A stretch of 64,000 bases of DNA from Bullera alba (taxonomy: Eukaryota > Basidiomycota > Tremellomycetes > Tremellales > Bulleraceae). Below are positions 22,019 to 48,942 of this stretch, piece by piece; the stretch's first letter is position 1; each line of letters starts with the position of its first letter. A model generated the notes under the pieces. The model had not been told where the DNA came from, searched no databases, and saw nothing but the letters and a program-made list of their open reading frames with translations. The translations under genes and the position numbers were made by a program. The stretch spans positions 128,586 through 192,585 of the forward strand of contig BCIX01000004.1 in NCBI GenBank assembly GCA_001600095.1. The letters run 5' to 3'.

Positions 22019-23903
22019 CTAAGCCACGAACTCGAGCTTGGTGTCGATGGCTAAGAGGTGGTCAGTAAGAACAACAGACTCTGAGATTGTGTGACTCACG
22101 GTGACACGCAGAGAGCTGTGGCTCTTGGGTGTACCTCCCGTCCTTCATCAACCTGCGGATGGACACCAGAAGGTCGATGTAGCTGACCTTGGGTTGCTTG
22201 GTCAAAGAGGTGATGAAGGCCTAGAGTCAGTGTTGTCAATCAAGAGCCGACTCACCCAAGACATGGCACCGACATTCTGCCCATCCTCGAAGGTGTCGGC
22301 AGACTACATGTCAGCGGATGACCAAGCTCAACCTGACTCACAGTCTGATCGTCACGACAACCGGACCAGCAAATGACATCAGCTGGGCTGGTGTGAGCCT
22401 CGGTCATGATGGCTTGCGCCTTCTCGTGATCATCTTCGAGGGCCTTGTTGAGATCCGCTCCGATAAGCTGGCCGATGATGGAGAGAGCATCACTGAGGAT
22501 GCCCTTGTCGGCTTGCTTGATGACCTCGGGCTCTTTGACAGTGCCGTCGGGTTGGTACTGAGGTCAGCAGTGTACGATCTGCTGTACTCACGACGTAGGG
22601 GATGTCCATCACAGAGCCAGAGTTGCACGAATCGAAGATGGCGGTGAGTCGACAACCGGCTGGGAGTGGTTTGACGAGGGCGTCGAAGCTGAGGTCAGCG
22701 GGGTAGGGGAGAGGGAGCTTACACTATGACAGGTCAGACTAGTTAACGCAAGGCTACACCTTCCTGACCGTGACTCACTCTCGTCGTCGATCATGAGACC
22801 ATTCTCCTGGAAGTCGAGCGGACAGATCGCTACTGTCAGCAAGATCATGAACAATGCACTCACCCTCGTCCTGGTTGTCTCGCTCATCGAGTCGCTTGGG
22901 CTTTGGCGCTCGGCTGACAGGGAGCTTGCGGTCTCGAGTCTGAGTGCCATGACCGGAGCTGTGGGTTAGCTTGAACAACCTTGACCGACTCACTAATGGA
23001 AGAACAAGGCATCGTCTCGGGTAGCGCCCTCGACGAGCCATTTCATCGCTTTGATGATGTTGGCCTTGGTGGGTTTGGCGTTGGGGTCTTGGTTGTCGTC
23101 GGTGAGGAGGACAATGTGTTCGGCGGTGTATCCGAAGTGGTCTGAAGTCAGCGGTGTCCAAGTCGGTAAACTCACCGATGAGGAACTTTTGCATATTACG
23201 AGTGTCGTTGATGCATCCTCGGAGGGAGTTGCTGGTGCCGATGTAGTTGATGCCGACAAGCACGGCCTTTCGATTTCCGCAGCCTGATGAGGTCAGCAAC
23301 GTGTCGGGTAATAGGGGGAGACCACTCACACCTGGAGTACTCGAAGAAGGATTGGGCTAGGACATTGTCGCTGGTTACGAGCTTGGGTCCGTACTTCTGT
23401 ACGACATGCTCGCCGTCGGTGGGTTGTGGGATGTTGGATGGGTCAAGGGTGATGTGTTCGGCCGGGACCAGGTGGTGTTGGCTGTCGAGTCAAGCGAGAG
23501 GTGGTAAGACGAAGGAGAGAGGGAAGAAGGAAGAGAAGAAGGATGACGGAGGTGGAACGACGAAGAAGGAAGAGGGAAGAGGTAAGAAGGAGAGGAGGAG
23601 AAAGAGGAGGAAGGGGAGGAAGGGTGGGAAGGGGAGAAGGGGAGGAAGGGGAGGAAGGGGAGGAAGGGGAGGAAGAGGACATGGTAGTAGGGGAAGTACA
23701 TAGTAAAGAGTGGTAGGTGAACGAAGAGGAGAGGAAGGAAGAGTGATGCGAGTGATGGTCGATGAATAGATGAGGTAGAGTATTGCACAAGGAGGAGGAA
23801 GGAAGATGATCAGCTATCATCCTGAACGAGGAGATGAGATGTGGAATATCACTCACTTGGGTAGGTAGTCGGTTGGTGGGGGTATTCCCGTCGGCAAGGA
23901 CAT
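22019..23903 (-). CDS. metacaspase A (prodomain-less, divergent acidic loop)
   Basis: Caspase-fold cysteine peptidase of the metacaspase family (Arg/Lys-specific, usually calcium dependent). Twelve exons: 23903-23857, 23481-23330, 23283-23176, 23141-22994, 22958-22864, 22829-22779, 22723 (one nucleotide), 22688-22592, 22557-22342, 22303-22256, 22220-22100 and 22050-22019, total 1116 nt, 371 aa. The p20 core starts near residue 66 ([10 protein letters not shown]). Catalytic His155 is in YSGHGTQ and Cys222 in IFDSCNSGS. The C-terminus [13 protein letters not shown] matches the family end. There is no Gln/Gly-rich prodomain. The acidic metal-binding loop normal after HGTQ is replaced by a basic stretch ([14 protein letters not shown]). 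Intron 1 is 375 nt and carries a long purine/pyrimidine tract; most others are 34-55 nt. Confidence 0.93.
22723..22723 (-). other. one-nucleotide exon (T) of metacaspase A
   Basis: Coding strand reads ...GAG A|gtgagt (intron 22778-22724, 55 nt) ..ctgacctgtcatag|T|gtaagc (intron 22722-22689, 34 nt) ..ctgacctcag|CTTCGAC. A+T+C forms one isoleucine codon. Without the T the downstream catalytic-cysteine frame is lost. Confidence 0.75.
23482..23856 (-). repeat. intron 1 of metacaspase A with polypurine/polypyrimidine tract
   Basis: From about 23489 to 23700 the plus strand is almost only A and G (the transcript would be C/U rich). Within it the unit GGGGAGGAA recurs four times perfectly at 23639-23674, with degenerate copies upstream. 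Confidence 0.85.
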
Positions 23904-46563: not shown

Positions 46564-48942
46564 ATGAGCGACTACGGCGACGACTACGAGCAGGAGCAGG
46601 AGTACCGGGATGACTCGTCTCATCACTCTGAGGAGTCGTACCATTCCAGACGATCGTCCGATTCCCATCATTCTTCCCATCATTCCGAGAAGTCCCACGA
46701 CTCTTCGCATCACTCATCGAACCATGGCGAGAGGGATTATGAGGGGGAGAGGCGAGGTTCCGAGTCTGGTTCTGAATCCGGTGGATTCCTCCCCGCTGCG
46801 GCGATGATGGGGATGCCAGGTGGCCATGGCGGTGGCCACGGCGGTGGGGGACATGGTGGCGGCGGCGGGTTTGGTGGATTTGGCGGCGGCGGCGGTCATG
46901 GAGAAGCCAAGAAGGAGGGTGGTATGGGCGGACTGCTGGGCAAATTCGGCAAAATGGCTTTCGACAAGTATAAAGACAAGAGCAAAGACGAGGGGAAGGA
47001 CAATCGGGACGCTTCGTACCAAGGTGGTCAAGGTGGTGGTGGGTATCAACCTGGACCGTATCAAGGGCAGTACCAGGGCGATCAGTATCAACAAGGATAT
47101 CAACCGTACCAAGGTCAAGGGCAGGGATATGGACAAGACATGGGCTATCGAGGACCACAGGATCAAGGAGGATGTGGGGGGTATGCACCTCCATCCGGAG
47201 GACCCCCGCCTGGGAACTACGAGCCAACGTAAGTGTACTCTGTCACTTGATACCTCGCTCCAATAGCTGGCTGATGGCGGTATAGTGGAGCGGGATACAT
47301 GCCCCCGGGGGGAGCCTACCAGCAGGGATATCAGCCCCCGTATGGCCAAGGGCCGGTGTACGATCAAGGAGGGGAGAGGCAGCATGCCTATGGCCCGCAA
47401 GTGGTGGATCAGAGGACAGGACAGGTCGCCCAGAACTACTTTGAGTACTCGACCTGTGAGCGGAGTCCATGGTGAGGTCTTGAGTGCATGCTGAGCTGTT
47501 CTAGGTCAAGGAAAGCGAAAAGCCCTGCTGGTGAGTCCAAATCCAAGCCAATGAGTGGAGCTGATGAGACTTGGCCCAGATCGGCATCAACTACTTTGGC
47601 ACGAGTGGTGAACTAGGAGGATGTATCAACGACGTGCACAACGTCCACAAGTTCATCTGTGGTGAGTACTCTACTTGAAGTACACTGCGCTAATGGTAGA
47701 ACGATTCGGGTACGATCCAGCGGATATTGTCGTCTTGACGGACGATACGAGAGATCCGCGTAAGTTGCCAACGAGGGAGAATATCATTGGGGCAATGCAG
47801 TGGTTGGTCCAGGGTGCTCAGAGGGACGATGCGTTGTTCCTGCACTAGTAAGTCTGGGGTGCCATCGACTACTGTAGAGCGCGTGTTGATGGTGCTACCG
47901 GGTCAGCTCTGGACATGGAACTCAAGTCGAGGATGTCGACGGCGACGAAGGCGACGATGACGATGAAGGTGGGTTAGCGGGGGTTCTAGTCAGCGCTGAC
48001 GAGTAGCGATCTGTCCTTTGGACTACGAGACCGCCGGTCTGATCATCGACGATGACAGTGAGTGCGGCTCTATATGGGTGGAGATGGCCTGCGAGCTGAC
48101 ATGAAGTGTAGTGTAAGCAATTGTCCACAATCCTAGCTTCTCGTCACTCACGCTCGCTCCCACTCTACCCAGACACGAGATCGTGGTCAAGCCTCTTCCC
48201 GCTGGCTGCCGCCTGACCGCCATCTTCGACTCGTGCCACTCTGGCACCGTCATGGATCTGCCCTACGTCGTGAGTACTGAGTGCCGTGTCGTTGACTGTG
48301 ATATTTGATTGATCTGATGTCCGACTCGCAGTACTCGACCGAAGGCACGATCAAAGAGCCCAACTTGCTCGAAGGCGCTCAAGATGACTTGATGGCTGCC
48401 GGCAAGTCCGCCATGATGGGCAATACCGACGGCCTGTTCAAGGGCCTCTTTGGCGCAGCCAAGGGTGCCTTTGAGGCTAATGCCGCCCACACCAAGACCA
48501 AGAAGAACAACACCTCCCCGGCGGACGTGATCCAATGGGCGGGATGCAAGGACTCGCAGACGGTAAGTGGAGACGAGAGTCCGGATTACCCGATCACCCA
48601 GGCGGAGGAAGTCATGCTGATGGCGGTCCAGAGCGCGGATACCGAAGAAGAAGGCAAAGCTACCGGTGCAATGTCCTACGTGAGTCGTCCGATGGTCGAT
48701 AGTGCGATTCGAGGAGCTGATGTCGCAACGTGTACAGGCCTTCATTGCCGCTTTGACAAAGTACCCACAGCAAAGCTACCAACAGCTCCTGGTGTCCATT
48801 CGGGAGGAGATGAAAGGGCGATACACCCAGAAACCGCAGTTGTCCGCCTGTCACCGTGAGTGGAGTGTGTCTTCGCCGTGGGTGCATGCTGACTGTGGTC
48901 TCCTTCCTAGCCATTGATACGGATCTGATGTTCGTGGCGTAG
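46564..48942 (+). CDS. MCA1: metacaspase B (type I, Gly/Gln/Tyr-rich prodomain)
   Basis: Metacaspase with the usual fungal layout. Exons: 46564-47228, 47286-47455, 47505-47530, 47580-47661, 47700-47847, 47907-47968, 48007-48057, 48112 (one nucleotide), 48173-48269, 48332-48562, 48632-48679, 48738-48855 and 48911-48942, 1731 nt, 576 aa. The prodomain (1-275) has a Ser/His/Glu part, a Gly-rich run ([20 protein letters not shown]) and [13 protein letters not shown] repeats. The core has GKRKALLIGINYFG, His367 in YSGHGTQ, the intact acidic loop [15 protein letters not shown], and Cys423 in IFDSCHSGT. The end [13 protein letters not shown] fits the family. Exon lengths 148, 51, 1, 97, 48 and 32 are identical to those of metacaspase A. 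Confidence 0.94.
48112..48112 (+). other. one-nucleotide exon (T) of metacaspase B
   Basis: GAC A|gtgagtgcgg (intron 48058-48111, 54 nt) ..gctgacatgaagtgtag|T|gtaagc (intron 48113-48172, 60 nt) ..ctctacccag|ACACGAG. A+T+A gives isoleucine in [15 protein letters not shown], aligning without gap to yeast Mca1 DDEMHDIMVKPL as I recall it. Confidence 0.75.

Follow-up and report, generated by a model that had tools for sequence, protein, structure and literature searches.

A single-nucleotide exon in metacaspase B

The window (the whole stretch of Bullera alba DNA analysed, 64,000 nucleotides, contig positions 128586-192585) carries on its forward strand a gene, metacaspase B (46564..48942), whose 13 coding exons lead from an ATG at 46564 to a TAG at 48942 and encode 576 amino acids. 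Exons 1–5 lie at 46564-47228, 47286-47455, 47505-47530, 47580-47661 and 47700-47847, exons 6–9 at 47907-47968, 48007-48057, 48112 and 48173-48269, and exons 10–13 at 48332-48562, 48632-48679, 48738-48855 and 48911-48942. The exon at 48112 is a lone T. Upstream of it are a 51-nt exon (48007..48057) that ends in phase 1 with ...GAC GAT GAC A and a 54-nt intron (48058..48111, gtgagt...gctgac...tgtag); downstream are a 60-nt intron (48113..48172, gtaagc...acccag) and a 97-nt exon (48173..48269) that starts A CAC GAG and bears the catalytic-cysteine motif DSCHS. The T is codon position 2 of A-T-A, encoding Ile402. This layout of 51 nt, lone T and 97 nt, separated by a phase 1 and a phase 2 intron, had been proposed in the initial annotation, and all of its coordinates proved exact. 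The second intron of the pair lacks a CTRAY branch site, the nearest fit being CTCAC.

With the T included, the frame of metacaspase B is open from start to stop; without it the frame shifts and a stop follows 14 codons on. By our own count, skipping of the T would place this stop at residue 416, before the cysteine at 423. The product reads through the junction as the conserved IIDDD-I-HEIVV, ahead of the catalytic cysteine, and its alignment with yeast Mca1 (4f6o; phmmer E 9.3e-108), in which the facing stretch is iiddemhdimvkpl, is ungapped at this point. Both metacaspase B and its paralogue A have the C14 domain with the catalytic His (SGHG) and Cys (DSC) of type I metacaspases (peptidase C14), and both are putative proteases of this type. 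Very probably, therefore, position 48112 represents a real coding exon consisting of one T, an assignment that draws on the reading frame, on paralogues A and C, on the annotations of Tremellales and on RNA-like relatives. Elsewhere in metacaspase B, the 69-nt intron at 48563-48631 (forward strand) is a multiple of three and free of stops, so that its retention would add 23 residues; its position corresponds to introns in A and C.

The same arrangement in paralogues A and C

Metacaspase A (22019..23903, reverse strand; 12 exons, 371 amino acids; Pfam Peptidase_C14, PF00656, E 2.7e-38) repeats the arrangement, as the initial annotation had stated: a 51-nt exon (22779..22829, reverse strand) that ends in phase 1 with GAC GAC GAG A, a lone T at 22723 (reverse strand) in the middle of A-T-C (Ile), and a 97-nt exon (22592..22688, reverse strand), with the same phases and introns of 55 and 34 nt. 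The start and the first intron of this model are predicted. That intron (23482-23856, reverse strand) is pyrimidine-rich and, at 375 nt, far longer than the other 34 introns modelled here (34-69 nt), so the start of the A model may be wrong. A third gene, metacaspase C, lies on another contig (C7; locus L001), with its lone T at 1972, introns of 36 and 35 nt and the junction GATGATGAAC/gtgagt...aatcag/T/gtgagc...ttctag/GCACAAC. Its exons beside the T are 113 nt on the left, where the upstream intron is absent, and 183 nt on the right.

In each gene the base is flanked by AG and GT and by two complete introns (tgtag/T/gtaagc in B, catag/T/gtaagc in A, atcag/T/gtgagc in C), and the split codons are A-T-C in A, A-T-A in B and C-T-G in C. 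All three frames are open with the T; without it a stop follows 14 codons later in C and 26 codons later in A. Retention of the second intron gives an immediate stop in all three (ATG TAA in A and B, CTG TGA in C). The lone T is thus conserved beyond one gene, at the DNA level in three paralogues and across Tremellales by annotation signature only. The 19.4-Mb, 7-contig genome was searched exon by exon for the C14 family, and two places were matched (A and C); given that this search missed B, the genome has at least three metacaspases and a fourth is possible.

The paired introns have diverged between the paralogues. In five of the six comparisons they were no more alike than shuffled sequences (334 to 701 of 1,000 shuffles scored as high), and the exception, intron 1 of B versus C, was only slightly alike (12 of 1,000 shuffles reached its score). 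This agrees with the earlier statements that the intron sequences differ and that the second gene is not a recent copy. A and B have one further common intron just upstream, absent in C, which suggests that they are closer kin, in line with the tree described below. The two genes are ~23 kb apart in the window. In Papiliotrema laurentii, the longest contig listed for the A-type protein P0178 and for the B-type protein P0131 has the same figure, 1701023, so the linkage of A and B may be old. Metacaspase A (22592-22959, reverse strand) lacks the DGDE-type acidic stretch of B and C and has DSCNS instead of DSCHS; judged by these features and by its long branch in the tree, it is a diverging copy.

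Splice signals and chance

A total of 35 introns were modelled in A, B and C, 34 of them 34-69 nt long. GTRAG starts 31, YAG ends all 35, and a CTRAY branch site is present in 30. To gauge chance, each inter-exon stretch was shuffled 20,000 times with dinucleotides preserved, and a parse counted when it contained YAG-N-GTRAG, both introns had usable lengths and the first of them offered a branch-like site. Such a parse was possible in 44 shuffles for A, 23 for B and 5 for C, with T as the lone base in 28, 8 and 3 of them, respectively; since the three genes are homologous, these values were not multiplied. The earlier judgement that a chance misreading is unlikely is borne out by these counts. 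Two other accounts of the junction were rejected. An assembly error is very unlikely, since three loci show full AG-T-GT signals, and splicing straight from the first donor to the second acceptor shifts the frame.

Proteins of relatives at the junction

Among the matches listed, the metacaspases of this genome were most like those of Tremellales, e.g. Papiliotrema, Naematelia and Kwoniella. For Papiliotrema and Saitozyma, membership of this order was checked by look-up; the other genera of the named proteins, such as Naematelia and Kwoniella, are presumed here to belong to it. The alignment comprised A, B, C and 192 database proteins of <700 residues, drawn from the best 120 matches listed per search. 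P0121-P0123 were omitted for their length and showed normal spacing at the junction in a separate match. Extra residues exactly at the junction were found in 30 of 40 named Tremellales proteins (15 of 20 of C type, 14 of 19 of B type and the single one of A type) and in none of the 152 others, where 150 had normal length and two (P0065 and P0067) were shorter. Each of these proteins represents a cluster, and the genera are unevenly covered; many of the proteins come from a single genus and perhaps from a single pipeline, so they are not independent. The remaining ten Tremellales proteins comprise three that are scrambled at normal length, one without the stretch and six that look normal (P0002, P0011, P0014, P0016, P0134 and P0136); in the last group the exon may be correctly annotated, or a plain intron may be present.

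The form of the extra residues is informative. If the base before the intron and the GT of the donor (N-GT) are read as a codon, Ser, Arg or Cys is expected, and by our own count one of these is the first odd residue in 24 of the 26 proteins with one extra residue, the exceptions being P0126 and P0146. A donor shifted by four bases would give DDEREHNIMV in C and DDDSEHEIVV in B, and the corresponding proteins of Kwoniella heveanensis and K. bestiolae read DDEREHHLLV and DDDSDHEIVV. In all, 24 of the 30 longer proteins look like products of a donor shifted by 4 nt. The simple reading is that annotation programs, unable to place the lone base, resort to the second GT of GTGAGT (at +5) and so keep the frame open. 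The B-type models P0140, P0141 and P0142 of Cryptococcus neoformans have scrambled residues at normal length at the junction, and P0026, labelled Tremellales sp., lacks the stretch bearing the catalytic cysteine; these are further signs that the junction defeats annotation. It is likely that the public metacaspase models of relatives that miss the lone base are wrong at this point.

Three database proteins apparently derive from RNA, as their short contigs and missing introns suggest: P0137 (B type, 537 amino acids, longest contig 2410 bases), P0179 (A type, 265 amino acids, longest contig 948 bases) and P0117 (C-like, 269 amino acids, longest contig 1017 bases). All three are uninterrupted, and the matching genes in this genome have 11 or 12 introns. 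At the junction they have no insert and show Ile, Val and Leu, respectively; as read from the proteins, the codons of these residues all have T as their second base. With annotated proteins of C. gattii and C. neoformans, which deviate at precisely this junction, P0137 shares 83-84% identity, and P0179 is 82% identical to a P. laurentii A-type protein that has one residue more there. P0117 lies at the base of the tree and may fall outside Tremellales. P0137 continues past SACH into an apparent last intron, not into the junction pair, a read-through that seems to resemble a partly spliced message.

Age and origin of the arrangement

In a tree obtained by a quick search, in which 18 of the 57 inner branches were left open, Tremellales proteins formed the B clade (SH-aLRT 95) together with a long-branched Cutaneotrichosporon and one Coprinopsis protein. 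The C-type proteins were placed apart from it, with Cryptotrichosporon (Trichosporonales) and Naganishia, both normal at the junction. Metacaspase A fell inside the B clade on a long branch, and its place within the Cryptococcus B proteins is probably wrong. These placements suggest a B/C duplication no younger than Tremellales, and as both B and C have the lone T, its origin before the B/C split is plausible and, in our reading of the sequences, likely. The initial annotation had argued that the exon predates the duplication of A and B, which is supported; the exon also occurs in the more distant paralogue C. Judged by its presence in all three metacaspases found here and, by annotation signature, in many Tremellales, the arrangement is old.

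That it arose twice, separately in the B and C lineages, is possible, and we consider it rather unlikely. The B clade and the C-type proteins are separate in the tree, the proteins of Trichosporonales, Naganishia and Mrakia have normal length, as expected if the layout had never been present there, and its apparent occurrence in other gene families of this genome implies that it can arise more than once. Against this, B and C share the same codon, phases and base, and correctly annotated genes would look normal too.

Further candidates in the genome

The genome was searched for patterns of donor, branch site, acceptor, lone base and second donor, separately for each base, with the pattern written backwards as the control. 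With GTRAGT as the first donor, a lone T gave 10 matches versus 1 in the control (2 versus 3 at shorter spacing), and the other bases gave 9 versus 3 (A), 3 versus 2 (C) and 3 versus 4 (G). Without the first donor the counts were 46 versus 86 for T, 13 versus 57 for G, 15 versus 31 for C and 17 versus 47 for A, and T before GTATG gave 10 versus 14. Counts appreciably above the control were limited to the first T pattern and to the A pattern, so matches alone prove nothing and sites were read singly. One scoring rule was applied to 26 T sites, of which 15 had an upstream donor, and at seven of the 26 it favoured the one-nucleotide parse over an ordinary one by at least 4. The rule was set after the loci had been read, with a threshold low enough for B and L010 (both of which score <0) and a codon table trained partly on A, B and C. 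The seven are metacaspases A, B and C, genes resembling HAD phosphatases, phospholipase D (PLD) and cation-efflux (CDF) proteins, and locus L010, all with phase 1 to 2. The same rule favoured the parse at none of 14 C, 11 G and 3 A sites, or of 6 C, 2 G and 3 A sites with an upstream donor, the site-by-site reading having covered 3 of the 17 lone-A sites of the scan without first donor and none of the 10 TGTATG sites. A bias to T among one-nucleotide exons is suggestive only.

The HAD-like gene reads MDGLL-V-DTERIY across its lone T, and a 31-residue piece matched 3l5k in a PDB phmmer search without a gap (E 7e-5); in Pfam this piece gave only a sub-threshold HAD match. The PLD-like gene reads IENQF-F-ISS and matched 6u8z (PDB phmmer, E 2e-11), ungapped at the junction. 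The case for a one-nucleotide exon in these two genes is strong. It is good for the CDF-like gene, which reads SRFES-I-GN and whose hand-joined 155-residue piece matched Pfam PF01545 (E 1.4e-13), a result that speaks to the family of the gene rather than to the junction itself; a PDB search with a 35-residue piece returned no match. L010, a membrane-like gene without a family match, has a candidate one-nucleotide exon. Pfam searches with short peptides of the PLD-like and CDF-like genes and of L010 returned no significant family. The CDF-like gene (L046, reverse complement, 1515-1584) also has, after the lone T and a 58-nt intron, an 11-nt exon (TGGTAACATCA) followed by an intron, and so reads as two consecutive microexons.

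Several other sites were rejected. The AG-T-GTRAG sites at L004, L009 and L011 were read as ordinary exons starting TGTGAG. At L004, the one-nucleotide parse with a 105-nt second intron scored 3.8 versus 1.9 for the ordinary exon, which was nevertheless preferred. At L011, the top-scoring solutions were one-nucleotide parses, but the peptide VRFLDNFSAG...TRGATSAEYF, which carries a known motif, is in our reading the product of an ordinary exon. L015, a lone-A site with the acceptor GAG, gives an ordinary exon from an upstream acceptor; the scoring preferred the one-nucleotide parse by 3.6. Taken together, we tentatively suggest, at somewhat less than even chances, that one-nucleotide exons form a recurrent class in Tremellales, mostly T in the middle of a codon between phase-1 and phase-2 introns and largely invisible to annotation, with the public Cryptococcus and Kwoniella metacaspase models wrong at the junction.

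Splicing of the lone T and alternative readings

The pair would consist of two short ordinary introns, in phase 1 and phase 2 of one codon and one base apart. In this intron-dense fungus, the unit recognised by the spliceosome is probably the intron and not the exon, and given how short the introns are (see above), either member of the pair could be removed first and the other then; there is probably too little room for assembly on both at once. Removal of intron 1 would leave the donor T/GTAAGC intact, and removal of intron 2 would leave the acceptor GTGTAG/T intact. If intron 2 were kept, translation would stop at once, and if both were removed as one, a frameshift and an early stop would result. 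We infer that the lone T is spliced in this species with removal in either order, and that its inclusion is most likely constitutive. Since GTRAG in phase 2 reads TAA or TGA, a message retaining intron 2 is stopped at once, as holds for introns of this kind in general, and this may explain the phase 1 to 2 arrangement. If so, this arrangement would be favoured because half-spliced messages are always flagged for destruction.

A single intron could instead run from a donor four bases downstream (GTGCGG after GACAGTGA) to the acceptor at 48172, keeping the GTGA at 48058..48061 (forward strand) as coding sequence, giving DDDSEHEIVV and leaving no one-nucleotide exon. This model, which works only because GTGAGT has a second GT at +5, is in frame in A, B and C, seems to be the form chosen in the public annotations for Kwoniella, Cryptococcus, Papiliotrema and Tremella, and in C would involve an intron of 68 nt, within the usual range. 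In B and A, however, the intron would be 111 and 86 nt, outside the range of 34 of the 35 introns, and the donors required (GTGCGG in B, GTCACG in A, GTGACC in C) occur in none of the 35. The residue that this model inserts is at a place where none of the 152 proteins outside the named Tremellales is longer, and the three RNA-like relatives lack the insert. The shifted donor, which the initial annotation had named as the alternative in-frame model, is thus disfavoured, and we consider it very improbable.

The lone T between two introns might also act as a switch, its inclusion altered under stress to yield an active or a dead metacaspase. The part of this proposal, made in the initial annotation, that predicts a dead product upon skipping holds, as all three proteins would be truncated before the catalytic cysteine if the T were skipped or intron 2 retained, whereas nothing points to regulated inclusion. 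Any splicing failure upstream of the cysteine would have the same truncating effect, the three apparently RNA-derived relatives include the base, and the seemingly identical layout in the unrelated PLD-, HAD- and CDF-like genes suggests a general splicing or evolutionary cause; a regulatory role appears improbable. A stwintron, in which a splice element of one intron is split by another intron nested inside it, with no exon base between them, resembles the pair in having two adjacent introns with consecutive splicing, but here neither intron is interrupted and the codon requires the T. In [D1,2] stwintrons, as outlined in the available portions of the sources, the internal intron lies between donor bases 1 and 2, whereas an A (in A and B) or a C (in C) precedes intron 1 here, and this explanation is scarcely credible.

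Significance and comparison with known systems

A one-nucleotide exon is the smallest possible, and within the available portions of the literature few nuclear cases were found, namely in two genes of plants and in one gene subfamily of Fusarium. The lone T of the metacaspases occurs in three paralogues and seems to span much of an order that includes Cryptococcus. It offers a compact natural system for the action of the spliceosome at two sites one base apart and for the origin and persistence of paired introns, and the genes with a lone T raise the question why this base and the phase 1 to 2 layout are seen repeatedly. Many Tremellales metacaspase models probably carry a false residue or miss real ones near the active site.

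Very short exons are known in basidiomycetes. The shortest based on cDNA, as given in the accessible text, are a 5-bp exon of the Sirobasidium magnum gene bglA and a 6-bp exon from Rhodotorula minuta (PMC9142197), and 6-bp exons are described in P450 genes of Phanerochaete (PMC1184071); they are like the metacaspase T in combining a very short exon with short introns, but have at least 5 bp rather than 1. For the annotation of C. neoformans and of C. deuterogattii, the accessible text reports that the microexon search of TopHat2 was switched on, and a Rhizoctonia paper mentions microexons, in its accessible parts, only as a TopHat setting. Gene structure is not discussed in the accessible parts of a paper on the C. 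neoformans metacaspases (PMC3219705). In the portions of the open-licence literature available to us, no one-nucleotide exon was found described for a basidiomycete.

Mitochondrial genes are not spliced by the nuclear spliceosome. One-base exons in placozoan cox1 (PMC5436844) and in Ophiostoma (PMC12308204), as described in excerpts of these papers, are alike in exon size. The stwintrons of ascomycetes (PMC9024468, PMC12403724) share, in the available descriptions, the consecutive removal of adjacent introns proposed here; in them a splice element of one intron is broken up by the other, whereas in the metacaspase pair both are complete with a coding base between them.

The closest counterparts are nuclear. 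One-nucleotide exons are known from APC11 of Arabidopsis (PMC4674806), from plant APC11 and VPS55 (PMC8831610) and from CYP621A of Fusarium (PMC12940212), so the metacaspase case is not categorically new. As far as the accessible text of the plant papers goes, the lone-base exons of APC11 and VPS55 are also flanked by canonical introns, annotations miss the base or add intron bases, and conservation is long. The exon of Arabidopsis APC11 is a lone A that was tested by constructs and reads, and intronless copies of APC11 hold the base in one large exon; in VPS55, one of two duplicate clades has the one-nucleotide exon (PMC8831610). The CYP621A paper presents its exon, in the portion available, as the second instance known overall and as the first from a fungal gene (PMC12940212). 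Like the T of the metacaspases, it lies in a fungal nuclear gene, provides the middle base of a codon between phase-1 and phase-2 boundaries, has a conserved motif dependent on it and was missed by annotation. It differs in being a lone G, confined in the accessible account to one ascomycete gene subfamily and confirmed by SRA reads, whereas the base described here is a T, predicted from sequence, in three basidiomycete paralogues and probably in unrelated genes as well.
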